Under the pieces are notes generated by a model. That model saw only the letters and a program-made list of their open reading frames with translations, had not been told where the DNA came from and did not search any database. 64,000 nucleotides of DNA from Dactylonectria macrodidyma (lineage: Eukaryota; Ascomycota; Sordariomycetes; Hypocreales; Nectriaceae), in the NCBI GenBank assembly GCA_020744425.1, contig JAGMUV010000034.1, positions 496,001 to 560,000 of the forward strand, read 5' to 3'. The translations under genes were made by a program, and so were the position numbers. Positions within the stretch are counted from its first letter, which is position 1, and the number at the start of each line of letters is the position of its first letter. Of this stretch, positions 39,667 through 57,048 are shown piece by piece.

Positions 39667-42582
39667 ATGACCTCGCCTGATTCTTACGTCGATGTTTCTG
39701 ACAGCGGTTTCGGGTCGGCCCCCGAATCAACACCCTGTTCGACGCCCTATCCTCCACGTTCAACTTCGACCCCTTTCTCGACATCCTCGACCCCTTCCGC
39801 AAGCGATGACCACTACGAACGTACGCTCTGGAGGCATTTCCCGGGCTGGGCATTCTCTGAGCGAGCTAGAGAAACGCGGTGTTGGGCCTGGCAATTTGGT
39901 TATGATATCCAAAAGGAAGGCGACAGGCTTTCTATCCATACTCCATACTCCATACAGGCCCGTATGGAATATGGAATATGGAATGTACCTCATATGGAAG
40001 CTTATTCCATACGTATGGAATACAAAAAATGACGTCATCTCTCAAACTGCCCCTATCGTAAAGAATCAAGTTTAGGAGCTCTGCAATTCGGTAATTATAC
40101 AGTGATTTGCCTGCTGTCGGCTGCAGACAGAACTGAGATTGAAGTATGAACCAGCATGGACGATGGGTTTGGGATCACTCTGAAACAGACTGCAATAGCG
40201 GGGATAATATTTTCCGGAATAATCCATTATTCCATACGTATGGAATACGGACGGCCCGTATGGAATATGGAGTATGGAGTATGGAATATTCCATACTCCA
40301 TCACTTATTCCATACGAGTATGGATAGAAAGCCTGGAAGGCGACCGCAGATGGGTTTGCCAAGCGTGCATTCGCAAGAATGTCCTACACCCACGTCATTT
40401 CGAAGCTGATGGCATTCACAACGCGTACAATCATCTGTTCAATGACCACGGGATTCGCGCGCCGCCTGGCAGGACCAAAGGAACTGCTGAGAGGAAGGCT
40501 AATTCCAAGAGCAGGATGCCTACGGGGCAACAGACTCTCGCGGAATCCCTGAAGCTTGATCTACACGACCCCCGAGAACAAGCAATTGCGAATGGCTTCA
40601 TCAAGCGCTTTGACAAGGAACACTTCCGGAGGCTTCTGGTCAACTGGATCGTGGCCAAGAATCACCCCTTTTCTATTGCTGAAGAGGTAGAACTCCGAGC
40701 TATCTTCGATTACTTGAACCCGTCAGTTTCAGCACGTAAAGCCAATATTACCCATACAACGGTTCGAGAAAAGATCGTCGCCGCGTTTGAACAACACAAG
40801 CACAAGGTGATTGAGGCCTTGTGCAGGGCGCCCGGCCTTGTCCACATTTCTTTCGACGGCTGGCGGTCGGGAAACCGACACGCCTTATATGGTATCTGTT
40901 GCTTCTTTAGGGACGAAAACAACAAGCCTTGCAAGATTACGCTTGGGCTCCCCGAACTCAGCGCCAGGCACACAGGGCCTAATATCGCCGCCGAAATCCT
41001 CGACGTAATTGAATCGTATCAGATCCAAGACAAAATTGGCTATTTCACGCTTGACAACGCGAAAAACAACGATACCGCCATGGAGATTATTGGTGGAGAG
41101 CTCGGCTTCGTAGGGGCTCGCAGGCGAGGGCGCTGTTTTGGACATACCTTGAATCTCTCCGCCAAGGCCATTCTGTTTGGCCACGATGCTGATGCTTTTG
41201 AGCGGCGGCTATCAGGGGCCGAGCCTCTCACTGAAGCAGAACACTTGATTTGGCGCAAGAAGGGGCCAGCTGGCAAATTGCACAATCTTGTGGTAGCTAT
41301 CCACGGGTCTGACTTGTTGACTGGTATGCTTCGCAGCATTCAACAAGAAGCCTTCACTAAGTCGTCTGACCCCAAACTCAACGCCAGAAAGCCGTTGGAT
41401 GTTATTTTGGACAACGATACCAGATGGCTCTCACAATTGTATATGATACGACGAGCTCTACTGCTTCGCGACTATATCGAGCGACTAATTGCCCACTATC
41501 GAATCGAGTTCGAACAACAAAACAAGACCAAAAGGGGCGGTCTTAAGAAGTCACTCACGTTGCCCTTTATTTGCCAGCCGGAGAATCAGCTATCCGACAA
41601 GGACTGGGAGGTGGTCGAGATATTTGCGGATATCCTTAGTTACTACGAAGCCACGATCAAGATGCTCGAAGGCGACGGCCAGATCCGCAAGCGGAAGCGT
41701 GGGTGGACTGGGTCATATGGCAATATTTGGGACGTGATTCAAGGCTTCGAATTCCTTCTCGAGCAGCTTGAACGCTTCAAGGATATCGCCAAGGACTTCC
41801 CTGACCCTGAACACTTCAGGATCAACATCAATTTGGGCTGGCAAAAATTAAACGAGTACTACGAGACATTGAGTGAGACGCCCATGTACTACACTGGCCT
41901 GGCGCTCCATCCCGCATACCGATGGAAATGGTTTGAACGCAACTGGACTGACTGCCCCGAGTGGATTGACGAGGCGAAAAAAATCGTTCACGATGTCTGG
42001 CGTTTTGAATATCGGGAGGCTACTTTACCTACAGAGAGGCCATCCGCCGTTGAGCCAGTTCCAAAGCAGCGGAAGACTTCAGACAATCCGTTCCGGGAAT
42101 ACCTTAAACGAAACCGTTACACAGCGACAGAAGCAGGTCACGATGGCCTCACGCCAGGCGAAGACGAATACCTCCATTGGATTACGCACGGCGAAAGTGG
42201 CGATGGCTCCGTCGACGATCCTCTCGCTTACTGGCACGAGAAGCGATTCAAGTATCCCAACTTATCGCGAATGGCGCTTGACTTTCTCACGATACAACCA
42301 ATGTCTGCAGAGTGTGAGCGTCTTTTCTCAGCAGCAGGTCGGATGGTGAACCCTCTGCGCCACCAACTTGAAGCCCAGATTATCGGGATGTGCCAGGTAT
42401 TGCGTTCATGGCTGAGGGCAGGGATTATTCATGATTTAGATCCCTTCTTTATCTCGATAGACGATGAAAAAGTCGATCTCGAATTGGCTCAGATGTCAGA
42501 TCAACAGCTTGAAGGGTGGGCAACAAAGTGGCTTACTGAGGTGGCGAGTGTTCAAGACGAGATGGAAGCCAGTTGGAGATAG
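39667..42582 (+). pseudogene. hAT-E transposase, split by MITE-F
   Basis: The frame starts at ATG 39667, is interrupted by MITE-F after EGD (39923) and resumes at 40344 with RRWVCQACIRKN, part of the BED finger (C-x2-C, then H in YNHLFNDH). The insertion plus duplication is 420 bp, so the phase is unchanged but the MITE brings a stop at about 40030. Core motifs: VHISFDGWRSGNRHALYG (first Asp), GYFTLDNAKNNDTA (second Asp), LDNDTRWLSQLY and IQPMSAECERLFSAAGR (hATC with Glu). The rest is open for about 746 codons. Close relative of the hAT-B transposase. Confidence 0.9.
39924..40335. mobile_element. MITE-F, 412 bp, inside the hAT-E transposase
   Basis: Ends CAGGCTTTCTATCCATACTC and its reverse complement, exact 8-bp duplication GAAGGCGA (39916-39923, 40336-40343). 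The inside is mostly CCATACTCCATA / TATGGAATATGGA words in both orientations around AATGACGTCAT. Terminal family shared with the end at 3860. Confidence 0.95.
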
Positions 42583-43009: not shown

Positions 43010-43120
43010 TTACCTCAGCAGGCTCAGACCCACTCACTAAGCGAACAGACGCGCTAATCACGTGGTTCTGTGAGAGGGCCTGAGTGTTTTCCGACGCGTT
43101 TTGGTGTGAGTGGGACTACG
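43010..43120 (+). repeat. Left 111-bp terminal inverted repeat of the RecQ/DUF6589 element
   Basis: Identical over all 111 bases to the reverse complement of 54858-54924 joined to 54161-54204. Its last five bases, CTACG, are the target duplicated by the copia element. Confidence 0.95.
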
Positions 43121-43331
43121 TGTCAAATATTTGGTGTTAAAATTGTGTATTCTGTCCTTGCCGCCTATGCCTTGAGGTTTTAGGGCAAGCTTTATATACT
43201 CTTTCTCTTCTGTATAGAATCAGCTAGAAGCTGATTGCTAAGCCTCGTGGCAATAGGTGGCAATAGGTGGCAATAGGTGGCAACTTTCGCCTCTGACATA
43301 TCTGACACACCCCCTCAGATTCAATGACTTC

Positions 43332-46300
43332 TCATTGAGTCTGAAGCCCTTCTTCGTCCTTCTGGAGCCTCTTCCTAACGTCTTCTAATCCAAGTTGATG
43401 TAAAAAGCGGTTCCATTTTCCAGCTGGAAGTGCTTTCGTCAGGCCATCTGCGACTATGTTTGTTGATTTGACGTATTTGACTTGAATTTTCCCTCTTTGA
43501 ACCTCCTGTCTGAGCCAGTGATTGTGGATATCAACATGCCGCAACTTGGTCCTCAAAGTAGCTATCTCAGCCGTCACGAGGTTGATAGTCTGAGTGTTAT
43601 CGCAGTCAATCTGGATAGTCAAGTCATCCAGTTGAACTGTCAGCTCCTTGAGCAGTCGGCTCACAAAGAGAGATTCCTTAGCTGCCTGTGCTAGGGCTAG
43701 GAGCTCTGCTTCTGTTGTTGATGTTGTGACTGTGTCTTGTTTGTTGGCTCTCCATCCGATCAGTCCGTTGAACAGCTTGATGGTATATGCCTGCGAGCTC
43801 TTCCGATCAGTTGTGTTGTCGGCAAAAGAGGCATCGCTAGCAATGCTGAGACCGCCGGGCCCTCCGAAGGATAGGGCTAGGTTCTTTGTGTGTGAGAGGT
43901 AGTGGATGACGCGGTCAGCCGCTTCTTGGTGTATTTGGCTTGGATTGATGAGGAATCTTGCCAATCTGGAGACGGCAAAGGCTATGTCGGGTCGGGTGTT
44001 GACTGCGATGTAGAGGATTGATCCGATCTTGCGTTGGTATCGTTGAATCTCTGTTGGGGTTGCTAGCCCTGTTGCAGGCCGTAGCTCTAACTGAGTCATT
44101 GGTACTGTAGCTGTTCCTTTATTAGCTAGGTTTGCAATTTTCTCAATATAGGCTGCTTGGGATAGCCAGATCTTCCTCGCAGGTCGGTCCCGTATGACTT
44201 CCATTCCAAGGAGCCATTGTACGGGGTTGCCGCCTGTTAGTTTGTATCTCAATTGGAGTTGTCTGATCAGGTCCTTAGCTTTGTTTTCTTGTGTTTTCCT
44301 GTAGGCCAGAATGACATCATCGACATATACGAAGAAGAGGATTCCTTCTTTTCTGAAGCAGCAAGGCTCGTGTGGAACTGGTTTGTAGCCCAGCTCTAAG
44401 AGGGTCCTAGAAAGCTCCTTCTGCCACAGTAAGGGGGAGACTCTCAGTCCGTATAGAGCTTTGTTGAGCTTTAGGATAGTTCCTGCCTTCTTATAGCCAG
44501 GAGGCATCTGCATGAAGATGTCTTGATCAATTGGGGCATGTACGAATGCGTTGACCACATCGTATTGGACCATTTCTAGATCAAACTTTGCTGCAATAGC
44601 TATCAAGGTCCGAAAGGACCTTCCGGCTAAGGTAGCTGCGTATGTGTCTTGCAGCTTCCCTTTTGCTGTTGGTCTCCTCGTACCACTAGCCGGGCCTTGC
44701 ATTTCTGAAAGTAACCGTGTTTGTCTGTTTTATAGACGTACACCCACATACAGCCTAGGACCTGTCGATCAGATGCTCGAGGGTCCTTGGCTCGGATCTC
44801 AGTCCATGACCTCATTTCCTTGTGACTTTGAAGATGGATTTCTTCAGCCTTCTGGAAGAGGTTTCCCAATGGATGTCCTATGAGATCTTGATGCTTCATT
44901 GGTGCCGGAGGTAGTGCATTTCTATGCACCTTTACTCCTTTACGGATCTTCCGTTCTGTTGAGGTTTGCAGAGGAGATTTGGTTCCAGCTAGAAAAGCTG
45001 CCTGCCACGTGATCGTTTTATTCCCTTGTTCTAACACATTTTGAGGTAATTGTGCGAGTAGGGCAGATGGCGGTGTATCTGGAGGCGTGAGGAAGTCTTC
45101 ATATTCTGCCCTTTTTGCCTGCGAGATTTCATCAATCGCTACTATAAGACGATCTCCTGTGAGTTCATTTGAGTCTTCCTCTTCAGGAAAATCCACCTCA
45201 ATGCAGTCTTCAGTCTCTGGCTGATCAATCGGTTCGTCTTGTTGAAGGGATGCAATTCGTGCGATTTCTTCTAGGTCTGCCTCTAAAAGGTCGTCCTTGA
45301 AGTTTTCCCAGTCTCCGTTGCAGCCCTTGTCTTCATTAAAAATGACGTCTCGGGCGCTCACTATTCGATTGATCGTAGGGACCCAGATCCTGTAGATATT
45401 TGAGGATCTATATCCGACCAGGAAGCCGATCCATCCTTTCGGCTTGAGCCGCATCTTGCGGTTAAACTTTTGTTGTGCCTCGGGGGTCATGGCATAGGCC
45501 TTGCAGCCAAATGCTCTTAGATGTGTTTGGTCAGGCTGTTTCGCTGGTTGTGGAATTCCTCTAGCTCTGGCTATCGCAGTATGCAATTGATCGTATGGTG
45601 TTTTCCAGCCTGATTTATAGTTTGGCGTTCGGTTGTATAGATAAACTGCCGTTCTGCCGACTTCTGGCCATAGCTGATGAGGGAACCTGGCGCCTGTTCG
45701 CATAGCTCTTTCCTTATCCTTTATCACACCCCCTGAGCGTTCGGCACCGCCGTTTTGTGCTTGGCTGTATGGTGCTGAGGGCTCAATAATGATGGCTCTG
45801 TTCCGTATGAAGTTTCCAACTTGTGGTTTGACCTCTGTAATCTCATTGTCGCATTCGATGACTTTGACCTTAATGTTATGTTGAACTTCTAGGTGTTTGA
45901 AGAAGGATTTGAAGACTGTGATCACAGCCTCTGTTGTCCGAGATGTGAGGTAATAATCCCAAATGTAACCCGTTGATCGGCAGGTAAGCAACATCTGCGA
46001 GGTATAGCCACCTATCCCTTCTTCGTAGTCATGGAAATCGACAGCGATGCGTTCGCCGGCTCTCTGGTCAGACTGCCTTGGAGCCCGTCTGACTTGTCTC
46101 TTGATCTTTGATAGGCCACAGGCGTCACATTCGACTGTTGTTGGTCCTCAAATTCGCACCCCCTGAGATGCTGAGACGAGGTGTTCAAGAGCTTGCGGTC
46201 CCGGATGCCCTAGGCGGTTGTGCCAGCGGATGGCTTCTCCCGCTAAAGGAGCCCTCTTAGTGTGAGAGGTGAACTTGTGGGCTGCCCAAACCGCCGGGGT

Positions 46301-46540
46301 CATCTCTGCCGGTTGGTATTCAATGACGTATTGACCGTATAGGTCCTTGATCGGGCAGGCGATTGTCTGATCGGAATGACGGAGGGTCGTTGGATCACGT
46401 CTGTTATCCCAATAGAGTCCTTTCTTCCGTAGCTGACGTAAGGAGACTAGAGTTGTGAGGAGTCGGGGACAGTAGGCTACATCTTCAAGCAACAGGGCTC
46501 GAGTTCTTGTCAGCCTGACTATCATTGTTCCATATCCCAA
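43332..46540 (-). pseudogene. Copia pol: pre-integrase, integrase, reverse transcriptase, RNase H
   Basis: Minus-strand polyprotein in order: GAG-pre-integrase RWHNRLGHPGPQALEHL, zinc-type CDACG, integrase with ECDN and the Glu in PYSQAQNGGAERS, reverse transcriptase with YDVVNAFVHA and the catalytic YVDD, and RNase H with SDASFAD and STTEAELLAL. Two lesions: an in-frame TGA at 46148-46150, just before the integrase, and a one-base frameshift around 44660-44700 between VVRGDQQ and KGKLQDTYAATL. Otherwise the frames are open. The region carrying the protease is shortened by or near the MITE. Confidence 0.88.
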
Positions 46541-46807
46541 AATTGGTAACTTTCGGTCACCTGACCAGATGAAGTCGCCTGGAAGGGCCGGCTGGAGATC
46601 AGCTAGTCGATTGGGGTCATTTGTGATTGAGATCGTTGTTCCAGGGTCTAGGATTTGAGATTTTCGTAAGGGATAGTCGTTGCTCTGGGCGGCAAATGCG
46701 GCGTTGACTTTAGCAATAAGCCGGCCATATAGTTATTGGTCAGAGGTTTCCTCAATAGCTGGTTTTGGTAGGTTCTTGGACTTCTTCCGAGTGAGAGCTT
46801 TTACTTG

Positions 46808-47700
46808 GGGAATTGATAGGGGGGCGTGATGTTTTTGATACGGGGGCGTCATCCTTACGGGGGCGTCACTTTTATTGCCTCCAATTGGTCAAAAAAAGGT
46901 TGACCCACTAGTACAATATCACCTCAGCAGGAGGACTTATCTCAGTAACAAGAGATCCAGCCCCACTATTATTGACAATAACATGTCTCTACTTATATAT
47001 GCAGGCGGATGCATTATCACAAGGCTGTAAGTTGCACGTTGCTCTTATTATATCTAATCAACTATAACACGGATTGTATCTTCATCGCTCCCAATTAGCT
47101 CCTATGACGGTTCATGGAGTCCCTGTGAGCCATGGGGTCGCGGGAAGGATGAGAAGGTCTGTGGATAGGATGCAAAAAGGTTCCCTAGTGCATCTTGATC
47201 TCCAATCCCGTAGTGTTGCTCTATCCTTGTCGCTATACTACTCGCTGACGGTGGCCGATTCGTAAGTAGCGGTGGGCTGAATCTAGGCAGTCGGCTCGGT
47301 CGCGGCCGCTTCGTAGGACGCAATTGATCGCTTGGGCTAGGGCTTCGAGTGCGACGAAGGTCGGTCTCTTTTTCTTGTGTTCAATCCTAGGCAGCAGTGC
47401 TACGATTGACTCATATCGTCGTGTGATAGCTATGCTGCCTGGAGCCGGTTGTATTGTGGCGTTCACGCTGATCGTGAAGCTGTTCACGATGATCATCATC
47501 TGTTGGCTTGAAGTGCGAGGAAATGAGCGACGGATCTTGACATTTTAAGATAGCCGAGTCCTCAGTACAAAAGGGGGCTGGGGGGAGATCTAAGATGTAC
47601 TAACAAAAGAGGGTCTCAGCCAATTGGAGGCAATAAAAGTGACGCCCCCGTAAGGATGACGCCCCCGTATCAAAAACATCACGCCCCCCTATCAATTCCC
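46808..47700. mobile_element. 893-bp MITE with 81-bp terminal repeats, inside copia
   Basis: Perfect 81-bp inverted repeats starting GGGAATTGATAGGGGGGCGT, flanked by an exact 8-bp duplication TTTACTTG (46800-46807, 47701-47708). The terminal repeat contains a tripled ACGGGGGCGTCA-type word. The inside has no recognised frame; a minus-strand frame at 47233-47499 has a protein-like run (PTFVALEALAQAINCVLRSG) that may be a captured fragment, unproven. Confidence 0.93.
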
Positions 47701-48914
47701 TTTACTTGTGCCTGGAGGTCTAGGTCTTCTTTAAGGGCTTCTCTCACCTTTGTCTGAAATTTTTCTCGAGGCCTAAACCCTCTCCAAGCTATGTTTGGAA
47801 AAACATAGAAGCATTTCTTAAGGACATGGGGTAGGCCGCATGCCGGGCATTTATCCTGTTCTTCAGGAGGCCTCTGGCGCTTCGTCCTTTGCCCTTCCTT
47901 CTTCAGAGAACGGTACTGACCTTCAATGATGCGAGCGTCCTCTGGTTCATCATCCTGGGGGTCCTCCCCAGCAAAGCTCGCAGAGAATGCACCTTGGGAG
48001 AAATTCCCCGTGCGACCTGGGCCCCGTAAGGCCTCTGCATTTTTGAGCTTATTCCGGAAGGCGTTCGCTAGATCTCGATAGATAAGAGATTCATCTTGGA
48101 TCAGGTTTTGTTGGCTAATTTCATAGGCTGCCGTCCAGGCAGGGAGAAGTTGTGAAGAGATGTTGAAGAAGTCATATGCCCAGGAGCTGCAAAAGAGGGT
48201 CTCAGGGACCTTTTGTTGCTGTCCTTTAGCCAAGGCTTCCTCCCACTCTTCTAACCATTTGAGTGCTTGAGTTGCGGTCTTTGGAGGTGTTTTCATGAGG
48301 GTCAAGTATGTGTTTCGAGCATCTCGTGTTTCGTCTGCTTCCGACCTCCCGCACCTGGCACGGAGATTGTAGTGCCATTCGTAGATCGACTTGCGCGGCT
48401 GACAACAGGTCCGGATGTATCTAGGAGAGACAGTTCGGATAATCCAGTCTTGGAGGGTTCTTAGAGACTTCCTCTGTCTTTCTGATGACTTTTCTTGAAG
48501 CTGATAGAAAGAGAGGTCCTGTTGGAAGCTCTTCTGACCTTGTTCAGTTAGGTCAGATAGAGACCATGTTCCATTGGTTGTCTCCTGTATATCATCTGAA
48601 TTGGCCCCTTCAGTCTCAGGTGTTTCTGATCGAATGGTCCGTTGTGCTGCTGTTGTCTTAGTGTATTTGCGTCTTCTGATATCTGGGAAGGCCGGTTCCT
48701 CTTCAAGGAAAATCTTCCTTTTGAGGTGCTGTTGCAGACCTAGAAGGTCAACCTGAAGAAGGAATTCGTGCTCCCAGTCCGGGAAGTCCCCAGGTTTTAT
48801 AAGAGTGGCCGTAAGACCTTCTTTCTGGGATTTTCCATGCAGCATCAAAGATATGATAGAAGGATTCTCAAAAATATTAAAATGGGTTGAGGCAGTGAGA
48901 CTCTTAATTGTCAA
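47701..48914 (-). CDS. Copia Gag, 3' end displaced by the MITE
   Basis: Nucleocapsid/capsid precursor. The frame starts just inside the 5' LTR border and runs about 405 codons. It contains the usual UBN2-like helical Gag region (WEHEFLLQVDLLGLQQHL near the start) and a single zinc knuckle-like CPACGLPHVLKKC near the end. The original continuation lies beyond the MITE at 46807 downward and stops near 46730. The frame does not show internal stops. Confidence 0.7.
48896..48908 (-). other. Copia primer binding site matching the tRNA-Lys(CUU) anticodon arm
   Basis: Directly inside the 5' LTR the minus strand reads ATTAAGAGTCTCA. Its complement TGAGACTCTTAAT fits the anticodon stem and loop of eukaryotic tRNA-Lys(CUU) (loop CTCTTAA). 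This suggests priming by a half-tRNA, as known for Drosophila copia with initiator tRNA. The same 13 bases follow the LTR of the TRIM at 57574. Confidence 0.6.
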
Positions 48915-49090
48915 ATATTTGGTGTCAAAATTGTGTATTCTGTCCTTGCCGCCTATGCCTTGAGGTTTCAGGGCAAGCTTTATATACTCTTTCTCTTCTG
49001 TATAGAATCAGCTAGAAGCTGATTGCTAAGCCTCGTGGCAATAGGTGGCAATAGGTGGCAACTTTCGCCTCTGACATATCTGACACTACG

Positions 49091-49475
49091 TACCATACAA
49101 AATGGGTGCAGAAGGTACGGCTATGCACAAAGACACATCAACGCCATCAACTCCCACGCGGCATGCGCCTTCAATTCGATACTTTTCATTACAATTAATA
49201 TTTCGGAAAACCCTACAGGCGCCAGGTATCTGCTAATGTGGTTTTTATTTATTTGCAACGCGTTCTTGTGGAAATATCACCACGAAGAGCAGTCACATCG
49301 CGAAAATCTCCGGCTAATTCTTGGTCGACAATCTTGGACTTGGTACCCTACACTCCTCTGTTGTGTATATGCAAGCAGTAGCGATAAGCCCAGATCCAAG
49401 GGATCCTTCATTCCTGACTCAACCGAGTTGAAACGAATATTAAGGAGGAGCTGCCCGGTTTGCAGATCGTTCAGT
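49091..49475 (+). promoter_or_regulatory. Left subterminal region and 5' leader of the helicase gene
   Basis: No separate gene. Most of this sequence (for instance TCGGAAAACCCTACAGGCGC and the TGTGGAAATATCACCACGAAG hairpin-like word) recurs in the 644-bp derivative at 54330-54540, so it is transposon DNA and holds the helicase promoter. An open frame continues upstream of the chosen ATG and cannot be excluded as coding. Confidence 0.55.
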
Positions 49476-51505
49476 ATGACTGAGATTGCCGCCACCTATG
49501 TGGAATACGCGCAATTGAAGTCTAAGATCGAGGGTTTGGTGGGATTCCAGCCGCGAAATGGGCAGGTAGAGGCGATACGCAAACTCGTGGTGGATCGGAA
49601 AGATCTGATATTGATTGCACCGACGGGTTGGGGTAAAAGTATCGTCTTTCAGACAGTTCCAGCCCTGGCTGGTGGAATTTGCCTCATGATCATGCCCTTG
49701 ACGCTCCTTGAAGAAGATCAGGTCAGTCATCTGCTCTGATACATAACTGCTAGTACGGCTTACCTGAGTCGTCTCATGTAGGCAAGATCAATATTTAGGA
49801 TCCCAGGCTGCAATCCATGTGTACTCAACGCAGGGACGAACTCACTGGCATTGCTTGAAAGCATCAGGAAAGGTGCTTACACCCATGGTTAGTGAGAGCC
49901 TTGGATATCTGTGAACTGCGTGCTGATTCTATAGTTCTTCTCGGTCCAGAGCTTGCATTATCTGAAACCTTTAAAACAAAGGTGCTTAGAGACCCATTGT
50001 TCCAACAAAAGCTGGTTCTTGTTGCTATAGATGAAGCTCACGTAGTTTGGGAGTGGGGAGAGTCATTCAGAATGCACTACAGTCAACTAGTTGTACTGAG
50101 AAGCTTCATTCCTAGAACAGTGCCATGGCTAGCATGTTCTGCAACACTTGATCCTCAAACACTTGCTAAGGTGAAGGAGTTGTGTGGTTTTGATTCAAGC
50201 GTCTTCATCCAGCGCAACTCTATTGATCGCCCCGATATATTCATTGCTGTGAAGCGGATGACACATCCTGTTACCACCTTCCGAGACCTAGAGTTCCTCA
50301 TTCAGCCAGTGAGGAAGGCAATAAAGGATGCAGTCACCCAGGACTGCGAAAACCAAGCTCGAGCAGCAATTGCGCTTGGAGACATTCAGAGTGCAACGCA
50401 ACTCATATCTCTCGGCGCAAGAGAGCCACAGAACAGCCAGATCCTTCAGGGAGTCGACAGTCGGGCATGTTGCATGAAGATCCGCAAGACAGTGGTGTAT
50501 TTCGACTCTATTGCGGCTCTCGAGGCTGCCACAGCTTTATTGACTGTAGCACTAATCAGCACTGGCTGCTCAAAGACAGCTGCAGCGAACGCGATCCAGC
50601 CGTATCACGCCGAGCTTGCAACCTTCGATAAAGAGTGCATCTCGAGGGAATTCGCGAAACCTGACAAGGAGATTGCCCTGGAGAGCTCCCGGCATCGTAT
50701 TATCATGGCTACTGATGCCATGGGAATGGGCATCGATAATCCAGACATCCAGCTAGTCGTACAGTGGAGACAGCCAGCCACATTATGCTCTCTGTGGCAG
50801 CGAGCAGGTCGGGCAGCCAGAGGTGCTAGTATCACAGGAGAGTTCATCTGGCTCGTGGACCCTTGGTGCTTCACAGTAGCGATGTCAGAGACCGGATCTC
50901 AAGGAGCTTCACAGTCAACCAGGGCACACAATCGATCTCTGCCTCAAGAACTGAGTGACGTGATCAACAGCAAGCACTGCACCAGAAGGAGTATCCTCCA
51001 GTTCTTCGAAGATACCACTTCCTACTTGCACCCTTCAGGCCCACAGTCCTGCTGCTCTCTTTGCCGAGGAGATCCACCGTCCTTGAAGAGCAGAGTTGCA
51101 CTAAGGCTGCCGAATACTCAGGTATCACAGAAGCATATCGTTGCTGCTGCAAGAGCCGCTCTGTTGAAGTGGAGAAAAGAGGCTGCTCAACGGTGGTCCT
51201 CCATACTCTCTCGTAGCGGAGAGAATTTGGTGCTTCCTGATACAGTATTACGCAAGCTATCACAAGCAGCGTCTTCTATCAACACTGTTGACACACTAGG
51301 CCTGCTAGTTGGTACTATTTGGGCTGCTTGGGAGACGTATGCGGCTGAAGTAGTAGATCTCCTACTAGGAGCATGTTCGGAAGCCAAGGCCACAAGGGCC
51401 GCCGAATTCAAACTAAGGAAGCGTCGTGCTTTGCAAGAGATTGAGGGCAACAGTCAGGGGAGGAGTAAGAAGCAGCAGAGGACCCCAAAGCCATATAAAG
51501 AATAA
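49476..51505 (+). CDS. RecQ-like DEAH helicase of the large TIR element, 640 aa
   Basis: ATP-dependent 3'-5' DNA helicase fold of the RecQ family. Exons 49476-49721, 49782-49887 and 49935-51505; introns have GTCAGT...TAG and GTTAGT...TAG borders and keep frame. Motif I APTGWGKSIVF (about residues 48-58), motif II AIDEAHVVWEWGESFR, motif III ACSATL, motifs V-VI MATDAMGMGIDNPDIQLVVQ and QRAGRAARG. A Cys pair-rich CCSLCRGD segment follows where RecQ zinc-binding sits. The C-terminus is basic. I chose ATG 49476 because it starts the conserved part; an upstream extension is possible. It is convergent with the DUF6589-like gene with only 8 bp between stop codons, both inside one pair of terminal repeats, so it is likely part of the transposition machinery. 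Confidence 0.85.
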
Positions 51506-51513
51506 ACCGAGTA

Positions 51514-54072
51514 TCACAGCTCGTCTTCTGCATCGACGTCGAAGAACTCATCCATCTCGTCCACAGCATCCTCTTCTTCCGCGTTGAAGTCGTCTGCAGT
51601 GAGATCCAGTCCATCTAAGCACTCCTTCCTATTGAATTTGCATAGACTTCCCCCGGCCAGTTTCGAGATCGCAGCATCAAATAGATCGATCGCTTCATGT
51701 GTGACTGGGCGGCGTTGGGTGCCGGTGATAGATCCACTCCCGACGAGTACTGCTGCCATCATTCTGAGATCTTTGATTGCCTTCTTCTCTGGATGGTTCC
51801 CGTTATGATTTATGCCAAGGAGTGACTCCATATTCTCTGCCACAGACTTGAAAAACTCGGTGTTTAGAGCACAGTTCTCCATGAGATATTTGACGGTAAT
51901 AGCTGAGCCGCGGCGATCCTTCAATATCGTCTTTAACGTGCCATTGTGGAACTCAACCAGTCTATCAGTCTCAAGCCAACCGTCATTAACGCCAGTGGTA
52001 TTCACTAGACCGTTTGCCAAGATAGCTCTCTGTAGTTCAGGCGCTGCCGCAGTGGTTGAAATAAGACGCTTTAGATAGAGCATCTCAAACGCGTACTTGT
52101 GCTGTCCCGATGCGTGGAAATAAACACAACTGCGGGCAATAGCTCGATGGAGGAGACCAAGATCGGCATGCTTGATAGCATGCTTTAAAACCAGGTAATT
52201 TTGGGTATGTTGTAGGAACAAGATGTGGTTCCTGAGCTCGGGATTCTTCGTGTATCGACAGTCGGCGTCGTAAGACTGTACGATACTCTCAATGAGTTCG
52301 TTGAGTTCGTTGGGGCCGTAAGACTGCAGAATGCGAGCGATATCCAACTCTGTATCGCCTAGACTGAGATTACCGAGTCTAGACCACATAAGAGCACAGA
52401 TCCTGGCCTGAAAGCTGTGGATAATAAGCTGTTCAAGAGCGTAGAAGTCTGCCTTCTTCGACTGGATCCCTTTGCGAATCCAGAAGTTCATAGCGTCATA
52501 GAGTGTGGCCTTGCTACCATCGCCTGCTGCACCGAAATGCGTCCGGCTTAGCATATACAGGTAATTCATTCTCACGTGAAAGAGAGCCGGCACAGGCAAT
52601 ACCCATCTTAAGCTATCGACTGCCTGGGCAGCTCTAGATCGGCGACTCTTGATCATGCGGATCCGCTGTGTTGTCTTCTGGTCACCGTATACGAGGAGTA
52701 ACCGCTCCGCGAATGCCTCATCTGGCAACTGGTATTGCTCCCGGAAGATATTGGATAATACATCCAGATTGCCTACATTCGTGCTCTCGTCGTATGGAAT
52801 AGGACCAAGAGATAGGTGAGCCGTCTTCCGTCGTGGCAGGATATCTATCACCGGCATAGGAGGTTGTGATGGCATTGATATGCAGTCCGGAAAGGCAGCT
52901 CTCATTGACTCGTATACGAAATGACGCGATATCTATCTCTTTAGAGGATCAGCTAACCGTAAGATGGAAATGAGATATAGAATGAATCTCACCTCTACTT
53001 CAATGTTATCCCTTTGATTTCCTGGGGATAAGAAGATGTCCTCTAGTTGCAGCTTTGCTACTGGATTCAGCATGCTTTGCAGCAGTCCTCCTTCTGGCAT
53101 CTCGATGCCTTGAATAAGTAGTCCAGTTGTGACCGAATGGAACGAACTCTGATGATCAACCCGCTGTTCTTTGACGTGCTCCATCTGCTCGAAATTATCG
53201 TATGCAGTAACGACGGTTGGCTGTTGCCCTCTTGCAGCTACTTCTTTCGCAGCGTGCTCTGACTGCCTCTTGATCACCTGCAATGTCTTGTGATAAGAGC
53301 AGCAAAGCCCGAGTCGTTGTAGTGCTTCTAACTGCCGTCTTTTGACGCCTTTGGAGTGGAGATATACGCTCAGCTGTATCTGGAACCCCGAAGATCGATT
53401 CCGCTGCTGCGATCTACATATTACTGCCAGAATGTTAATGAGATACCCGGGATCTTCAATGCCCTCATAGCCTCTCCTGAGGTGATTATCTGGCCTCAAA
53501 ACACTCCGCAGCGTCTGCATAAGCAATGGACAATTCTCCTCAGCGGCTTCGATGATCTGATTGCTGTCCAGCCGCTCAAAATCAACCACCTCTTCACCCT
53601 GAGCATAGAGAAATGGCTTGAGCTTGCCAAGTTGCTCAATCTCCTGCCGTAGCTCGATAGCACCGATGTTTAGGTATTGGATCAAGTAAGATCGAGAGGA
53701 TGCTACAACCCCATTTCCAGACCGTCGCACGCATGCATCCAGAACAGTAGCATCTTGGAAGGTTGCTTTGGTAAATGCAGTCCTCCTCTGAGCATTCGAC
53801 TGACCCTCAGAGGTGGCTAGGGTTCGAACGAAGTCGCCAATCGACCAATTCAGGTCGTCACGCATGTATTTCCATATCAGATCAAGCTTCTCGGCGCTAT
53901 CTCGCTTCTGTTTCCGTGCATTCGTGTTGCGTTGCGATGAGGATGGCGGAGGAGATGAGGGAACGCTGATAGATTGCGGGCTGTTTATAGAGCCGAGGGA
54001 TGAAAGAGTTGTGGCGCGTTCTTGCATCGTGTGCTTCGACATTACAAAGTTGTGCTGTATCGTTTTATGCAT
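51514..54072 (-). CDS. DUF6589-like protein, candidate transposase, 832 aa
   Basis: Exons 54072-52993 and 52932-51514, intron 52933-52992 (GTGAGA...TAG); no stop or frameshift. The N-terminus is Ser/Pro-rich, then a helical region. I associate the following with fungal DUF6589 proteins: VTAYDNFEQMEHVKEQRVDH followed by FHSVTTG, then AFPD, then LLLVYGDQKTTQRIRM and VPALFHVRMNYLYMLSRTHFG, then a later YALEQLI and LVKHAIKHAD-like helices. The spaced acidic positions D (YDNFE), D (YGDQ) and a later E could form an RNase H-type DDE site, but I have not aligned it to a known transposase. The C-terminus is strongly acidic. Its position inside perfect terminal repeats makes it the best candidate recombinase of the element. 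Confidence 0.75.
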
Positions 54073-54204
54073 ATGGTTTAGCTGAAATGCCTGTGACCAT
54101 CATCTAAAGAAGCTGGCGCTGGTGATGGCGATGGCAGGGATGCATGATCTCTGAACACTTCGTAGTCCCACTCACACCAAAACGCGTCGGAAAACACTCA
54201 GGCC

Positions 54205-54848
54205 TTACCTCAGGCACTCAGGCCCACTCACTAAGCGCACAGACGTACCGATCACGTGCTTCTGTGAGAGGGCCTGAGAGATTTCCGACACGTTTTGGTG
54301 TGAGTGCGACTATCTCCCATACAAAATGGGTGCAGAAGGTGCGGCTTTGCAAAGACGGCACCATCGCCATCAACTCTGACGTGGCATATCGCCTTCAATT
54401 CGATACTCCTCATTACAATTAAATACTTCGGAAAACCCTACAGGCCCCAGGCACCTTCTGATGTGGTTTTAGTGTAATTTCTTGTGGAAATATCACCACG
54501 AAGGGCAGTCACATCGCAAGAGTCTCCAGTTAATTCATTTGACGACCTGTAACTCCAGCCGAGGGATGCGAGAGGCGTGGCGGGTTCTTGCATTGTGCAA
54601 TTCGATGCTACAGAATCGTGCTGTGTCTTCTTTATACATACGGTTCAACTGAAGTGCCTGTGACCTCGTCGAGTGAAGCCGGCAATGGCGTCGCATTTGT
54701 TTGCAAAGCCGCACCTTCTGCACCCATTTTGTATGGGAGATAGTCGCACTCACACCAAAACGTGTCGGAAATCTCTCAGGCCCTCTCACAGAAGCACGTG
54801 ATCGGTACGTCTGTGCGCTTAGTGAGTGGGCCTGAGTGCCTGAGGTAA
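54205..54848. mobile_element. 644-bp non-autonomous derivative of the RecQ/DUF6589 element
   Basis: Terminal repeats of about 150 bp, starting TTACCTCAGGCACTCAGGCC, identical on both sides, with an exact 9-bp duplication ACTCAGGCC (54196-54204, 54849-54857). It is inserted in the right terminal repeat of the large element. Inside, the left half matches the large element's left leader (49100-49320) and the right half matches the N-terminal end of the DUF6589-like gene (53985-54110), so it arose by internal deletion of a related autonomous copy. Confidence 0.95.
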
Positions 54849-54940
54849 ACTCAGGCCCTCTCACAGAACCACGTGATTAGCGCGTCTGTTCGCTTAGTGA
54901 GTGGGTCTGAGCCTGCTGAGGTAACACGAGACTATAAAAA

Positions 54941-57048
54941 TCCCTTTGACTGTGTTAAGGCTCCAGACAGGGGGTCGCAGGGGGGTCGGCCCAATTAGGG
55001 AACGAGCGTTCAGGGGTACATCAATTCCCACCTATTTTGTATGGTGATAGAAGTCCCAGCAATCCTGTGAGCTACAAAGAGCTACATCGCACTGGTCACA
55101 GCCACCGCGAGACTGCCGCCGGATCCGGACCCTGTTGCCGTCGGCCTCACTCAACGGCCGCCGCGAGCTTCGTGACCTGACCTCTCCACGCCGTACGCCC
55201 TGACATGCGAGGCAGTTACCCTTTTTCCCTCGCTGGACGTATTTATGCTGTGACAGAGGCGTAAATTCGTCTCCCGCCCGAAACCTCTGCCTAGAGTCAG
55301 ATTGACCGCTGTACGCCTGGACGAGGTCATCAACAAGGCGCCCTCGCCACTTAGCCTGACGTGTATATGACTTCCAAATAGGCTTGCCGCGTAGCTGAAG
55401 AAGGTAACTGTTGACTACAATGACGTCAATTAGGTAGGACCAAGCTAGGGCTTGCCAACCCCCTCGGCGCACACGGTGTTCGAAGCCCAAATATGACCTC
55501 AGTTGGTCACCGCGGTCTACCCCGTTCATCTCGTCATTGTAGAAGGCAGCAACAGACGGGATAATAATCTCTTTCACTGGCTCGTCACCGAAAAATCGCT
55601 GTATTGGGCGTGCTCGAATTTGGTCTGTTGTCGGCCTCTTGCGTAACCGAAGGACGGTCTCGTCGCCTGCGTACACAGTAGATAAGAACAACACAAGGGC
55701 GTTGTCTTTCCACGCGATCTGATTTACCTGGCCCAGGACAAATTAGTAGGGCATTTACAGCTAAAGCTGTCTGCTTGACTGACCTTATTATCCTTAGTTG
55801 GGACGGTCCTGATTTCGTTGAATTTGATATTTGCGGCAGCTGTGTTATCGTCATTTTTGAGCTTGACTAAGGGCTTGTAGATGCCACAGTTGACTCAGGC
55901 TGTACCCGTAGCGCCGTGGCCGTGCTCGCGGAGGCTGCGTAGGAGGTCGGGAGAGGAAAAGAGGTTATCGATAAAGACGTGATAGTTGGCTTCTGGCAGC
56001 AAGTTTAGTAGGGCAACAACCACAGCCTGCGTCGGGTTCAGATAGACTGTCTTCTCCTGCTTGGCCTCACGCCGCCGTTGCCGGGCAGGCTTGAGACCAA
56101 CAGGTCCAAACCTAGGTCCGGGCCTATGCCAAATCCAACGTAGGAAATAGCCCTGCTGTGCTGCAACCCAAACTTTGAAGCCGACGGGGATCGGCTTGTT
56201 AGGGACTCTTGTTGTCTCTTTTGACCTCCCTGTATAGCGGGCCATACACTCATCTACAGCGATGCAAGTGCCTGGAACATAGAAATCCGTAGACACGCGC
56301 TGTATGTGGTCAGACCACGGCGTCACACGGTCATAGGTGAGGGCGCTGTTGCTGCTTATGGTGATGTGAGGGCTGAAAATGCGAATGTGACGATGTAGCT
56401 GCTGAAATCGGTCATAGGTCATATATTTGATGATAGAGTGAGTAGAGTGTTGGTGCCCCGGCCGAGAAGTCTCCCAATGGTCTTCGAGGTCAAGTTCAGT
56501 GTGAATCCCTAAGTAAATAAGGATTGCGACCCATATGTAGACTTCTGCAATAGAGGTTGGTCTCCAGAGGCGTAACCGTGATCTTGGCGGTAATGTGTGT
56601 GCACTACCGCGAGCCTCTTGCTGCAGGTGGCTAACCCAGTCATTGGTATATTTGACCCAGCTTTCTACTAGGGAAATAGGTAGGAATTGCTGGAAAAGAG
56701 ATAACGGGTCCTGGGGCAGGTCCTTGACCTTAAAGTCGCGTGTTGGAACCTCGAAAGGCATGAAGTTGTAGCCGCGTTCGTTGACAGGGGCTAGGTTCGG
56801 CCGGCAGGTGTTGTCAGCTCCCTGCTCCCGGCGGCTGTTATCAGTGCAAATGAAGCTGTTATCGTCAAACACATTGATTGCCTGTGTTGAGGGCACTTGG
56901 GTATCCATCGCGAAAGTCAGAATCGTTTGTATGTGTATTTTGGTGGGGTTGATTCTGACTACGCGACGCGTTACTCTGATGTACCTCACTGTGAGCAGGG
57001 GTCATGTGGGGCACAATCTGGCCTGGAGCCTTAACACAGTCAAAGGGA
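54941..57048 (-). mobile_element. piggyBac-type transposon
   Basis: Inverted ends TCCCTTTGACTGTGTTAAGG (54941) and its reverse complement ending at 57048, continuing to CTCCAG, 26 bp in all, around a piggyBac transposase. The usual TTAA flank is not visible on either side; either the true ends lie slightly outside or this family differs. Confidence 0.8.
55032..56908 (-). pseudogene. piggyBac transposase (DDE_Tnp_1_7), one nonsense codon
   Basis: Minus-strand frame from ATG 56908 to 55898, then an in-frame TGA at 55895-55897, then reading on to 55756, an intron (GTCAGT, branch CTAAT, GGGCCAG, about 55695-55755) and a last exon to 55032. Catalytic Asp positions: AVDECMARYTGRS, VFIDNLFSS and GVDRGDQLRSYLGF. 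A Cys-rich zinc domain ends the protein (CLACQG, CDQCDVALC), as in piggyBac. The TGA stands where the family has an Arg codon (GTA-x-x-NCG context), so a CGA to TGA change is likely. One point mutation is the only lesion I see. Confidence 0.85.

Follow-up and report, generated by a model that had tools for sequence, protein, structure and literature searches.

The 64,000-bp stretch of Dactylonectria macrodidyma DNA analysed here (the window; contig JAGMUV010000034.1, positions 496,001 to 560,000) contains, at 43010..54924, a transposon with two genes, one for a RecQ-like helicase and one for a DUF6589 protein, between long terminal inverted repeats. Both ends proposed in a preliminary description, made from the sequence alone, were located: the outer element begins with TTACCTCAG at 43010 and finishes with CTGAGGTAA at 54924. 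The left terminal inverted repeat, which opens with TTACCTCAGCAGG, occupies 43010..43120 (111 bp, forward strand), and the right one, on the reverse strand, is split by a nested element into an inner part at 54161..54204 (35 bp together with one copy of the 9-bp duplication of the nested element) and an outer part of 76 bp at 54849..54924. End alignment confirmed the perfect 111-bp repeats, with 0 mismatches when the 644-bp element nested in the right repeat is passed over together with a single copy of its 9-bp duplication. Without later insertions the element measures 5,292 bp, which agrees with the earlier figure of about 5.3 kb, and eight other coding copies range from 4,967 to 5,329 bp; it looks intact and well preserved, and no target-site duplication was seen in its flanks. 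The element is not a chance arrangement, because its left repeat is matched 23 times across the genome (five of them inside the window) and both of its proteins match elsewhere; the 9-mer TTACCTCAG by itself is uninformative, with 499 genome matches vs 636 for the reversed control.

Regarding the genes, they are convergent, with stop codons at 51505 and 51514, 8 bp apart as first described. The helicase gene (49476..51505, forward strand) encodes a RecQ-like superfamily II helicase of 640 amino acids, with Pfam DEAD and Helicase_C matches on its exons; RecQ and WRN are its best sequence matches in the PDB, with E about 1e-29, and bear out the earlier naming. On the open frame 49859-51505, TIGR00614 (recQ_fam) gave an E value of 6.5e-31 and 107.6 bits, under the curated cut-off of 219.8. 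This gene needs two introns, 49722-49781 (60 bp) and 49888-49934 (47 bp), and the DUF6589 gene needs a single in-frame intron of 60 bp, 52933-52992; the introns of both were placed by eye, and tblastn alignments against several other copies break close to the proposed sites.

As for the second gene (51514..54072, reverse strand), its 832-amino-acid product is a putative DDE transposase, judged by its Pfam match, fold similarity and conserved acids. The match to PF20231 (DUF6589) has an E value of 5.9e-71, so that the label DUF6589-like was accurate, and the protein is 88% identical to a close relative in Metarhizium anisopliae and 80% to one in Fusarium solani. A D, D, E set is conserved in DUF6589 relatives and the predicted model has an RNase H-like transposase fold, the core that the preliminary description had proposed to look for; the candidate catalytic codons are D at 53199-53197, D at 52683-52681 and E at 51954-51952 (or E at 51972-51970). 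The motifs YDNFE and YGDQ, singled out earlier as possible parts of such a site, hold conserved aspartates positioned like its first two residues. Among solved structures, the folds closest to the model are those of the Drosophila P element and Hermes (hAT) transposases, which differ from it in sequence (about 10% identity) and come from elements not known to carry a helicase; a sequence search of the PDB with a profile built from the 48 relatives gave no hit at E values up to 1. The top five Foldseek rows, ABC transporters and a KATP channel, had low probability and TM-score and were taken for length artefacts. From the predicted model and the conserved acids, DUF6589 looks like the DDE transposase of this family, and PF20231, a family of unknown function in Pfam and not a named transposase superfamily, a match to which would have told against the preliminary description, can now be proposed as a DDE transposase.

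The two genes also co-occur elsewhere, and the pair with the same termini is present at other sites in the genome, a check that the preliminary description had proposed. A genome search with the DUF6589 protein gave at least 23 matches (protein-match counts are lower bounds), that is, 22 loci once two at C8:502 kb are merged; compared by hand, 15 of these 22 lie no more than about 1.5 kb from a helicase match, convergent in every case and closer than 100 bp in ten, so the genes are mainly paired. No helicase match accompanies the seven loci at C19:37845, C20:1022592, C25:492897, C19:479062, C8:502 kb, C56:24878 and C77:122452. The DUF6589 relatives at C56:24878-26110 and C77:122452-123594 have 32 and 36 in-frame stops, respectively, as repeat-induced mutation would leave. 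Across species, pairing was measured indirectly, by the size of the carrying sequence: 11 of 79 helicase proteins coincide in it with a protein of the DUF6589 search, and a shifted-size control gave a mean of 0.98 and a maximum of 4, so that chance alone would account for roughly one of the 11. These 79 were taken from the 120 listed among the best of 603 found, omitting P0128-P0168, mostly general RecQ; the DUF6589 set comprised 120 of 122 proteins, the other two having no recorded size of the carrying sequence, and the 122 include 41 fragments (P0202-P0242) that lack the Pfam domain.

Copies at different sites, target duplications and two related empty sites attest to mobility. Duplications were read in 13 elements, namely the two in the window, L052-L056, L058, L063-L065, L066 and L067; L057, for which a single terminus was found, was omitted. 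Exact 9-bp duplications flank five of them (the nested window element, L052, L053, L063 and L064) and 8-bp duplications four (L054, L065 and, in a reading by eye, L066 and L067); L055 has 6 bp as framed, or 9 bp if its boundary is shifted by eye, and the flanks of the remaining three (the outer window element, L056 and L058) show none. When flanks were mixed among 11 of the 13 elements, one match in 110 was obtained, by eye that of L064 with L058, which have related targets. L058, a 2.15-kb deletion derivative, and L064, a full copy, have right-flank sequence in common, which suggests related target sites. A related empty site for L053 lies, by eye, in the flank of L063, and one for L063 itself in L057, with two differences across nine bases. 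Finally, L052 and L055 do not differ anywhere in 5,314 bp, and L063 and L064 are 99.98% identical; recent movement would be the simplest reading of such near-identical copies, and gene conversion is an alternative source. L066 and L067, about 6.0 kb long, form a subfamily in which the transposase is 37% identical and the helicase frame longer; the TTACCTCAG termini are shared, and the duplications are of 8 bp.

The earlier claim that the element is a DNA transposon is supported; very probably it belongs, in D. macrodidyma (Nectriaceae, Hypocreales), to AcademH, a DDD/E lineage of DNA transposons, as other papers describe the traits of that lineage. The name AcademH dates from 2020 and was given to elements of animals and fungi (Kojima 2020, Mob DNA 11:15, as represented in citing papers). 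According to the sections consulted, AcademH has duplications of 9 or 10 bp and AcademX of 3 or 4 bp, lengths seemingly tied to helicase and nuclease (PMC10045372); AcademH occurs in Basidiomycota, Ascomycota and Mucoromycota with DEAD and Helicase_C domains (PMC10799480), and a RecQ helicase in Academ was in print by 2013 (PMC3627910). The present family resembles AcademH in being fungal, in its candidate DDE transposase, in encoding a helicase within the element, in its terminal inverted repeats (111 bp, perfect) and, mostly, in duplication length, with 9 bp in five of the 13 elements. The 8-bp duplications of four others fall short of the published 9-10 bp, a difference from that lineage. 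The filing is by traits because the sequence relation to the transposases of the Repbase AcademH entries lies beyond the comparison made. The undescribed class of the preliminary description does not stand, since AcademH, as the available portions of these sources present it, already has the same gene content, host range and roughly the same duplication length. The finding adds no transposon class; what it offers is a recently active-looking family of a known lineage, and a helicase-carrying family with very recent copies is well suited to studies of the function of the helicase.

Kolobok transposons have TTAA as target duplication, and no TTAA duplication flanks any of the 13 elements examined for duplications, which are mostly of 8-9 bp and of varied sequence. 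Membership of KolobokH, the RecQ-bearing Kolobok lineage of fungi, is therefore very unlikely. The C/DxxH motif of Kolobok gives a mixed picture: the histidine that is invariant after the second D stands in A/GxxH in 47 of 48 rows and in QxxH in one, its structural place being judged by eye, but C/DxxH occurs elsewhere between the second D and E in at least 16 of 47 rows. The resemblance is one of host and gene content, as KolobokH is described, in the part of PMC9587614 consulted, as confined to fungi and carrying a RecQ helicase, which in Kolobok-1_CCri of a red alga lies on the complementary strand; here the helicase is an opposed gene. Slightly less improbable, and still unlikely, is a separate unnamed superfamily with a P-element-like transposase, A/GxxH in place of C/DxxH, and a RecQ helicase acquired independently, its likeness to AcademH arising by convergence: in Pfam, DUF6589 is no more than a family of unknown function, and the literature searched does not contain the term. 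Against this reading, AcademH is matched in the helicase, in host range and, for the most part, in the length of the duplications.

AcademX, the sister lineage in the Academ superfamily, has a nuclease and duplications of 3 or 4 bp (PMC10045372, in the portion consulted); it was rejected, as duplications here are mostly 8-9 bp and the Pfam scan of four open frames gave no nuclease family such as XPG, save a sub-threshold Cas3-like_C_2 on part of the helicase. The element shares a carried helicase with Helitrons. These have neither terminal inverted repeats nor target duplications, and they were also rejected, given the long inverted repeats and a Pfam scan of the two genes that found no Rep or Helitron family, in keeping with the earlier remark that an HUH Rep is absent; the HUH nuclease of Helitrons is described in the part of PMC12730594 consulted. 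KolobokH, AcademX and Helitron are thus set aside because each fails a tested feature, a matter of general background for KolobokH and Helitron. That host genes were trapped by chance between inverted repeats has next to no probability: in its favour, the outer window element has no target duplication, but the reading is refuted by the other copies, with the same gene pair and termini at other sites with duplications, and identical recent copies.

For an AcademH element of this kind, the DUF6589 protein would bind the inverted repeats, excise the element and then insert it into a target, cutting the two target strands about 9 bp apart. The helicase would be an accessory factor, probably serving to unwind the element ends or the target. 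Catalysis, cut-and-paste rather than replicative movement, and this role of the helicase are what we infer.

Two later insertions interrupt the outer element. A Copia-type long terminal repeat (LTR) retrotransposon (43121..49085, reverse strand), foreign to the transposon and recognized by its repeats, open reading frames, flanks and an SH3_retrovirus match, lies immediately inside the left repeat; its nearly identical LTRs, 43121-43307 and 48909-49085, have 99% identity over 153 bp and 100% over 52 bp, and it is flanked by the 5-bp duplication CTACG at 43116-43120 and 49086-49090. The name Copia reflects our reading of the gene order in the translations. The nested 644-bp element (54205..54848, strand unassigned), identified by its repeats and flanks, has perfect inverted repeats of 149 bp and is flanked by the 9-bp duplications ACTCAGGCC at 54196-54204 and 54849-54857; none of the listed open reading frames of at least 120 amino acids lies within it, and it is a non-autonomous relative, which the enzymes described above could mobilize. 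Directly left of the outer element, a long open frame at 40150-42582 has a hAT dimerisation domain (PF05699) and represents a hAT transposase; directly right of it, at 55032-57001, two interrupted frames match DDE_Tnp_1_7, the shorter one under the curated cut-off, and we read them as probably of piggyBac type.
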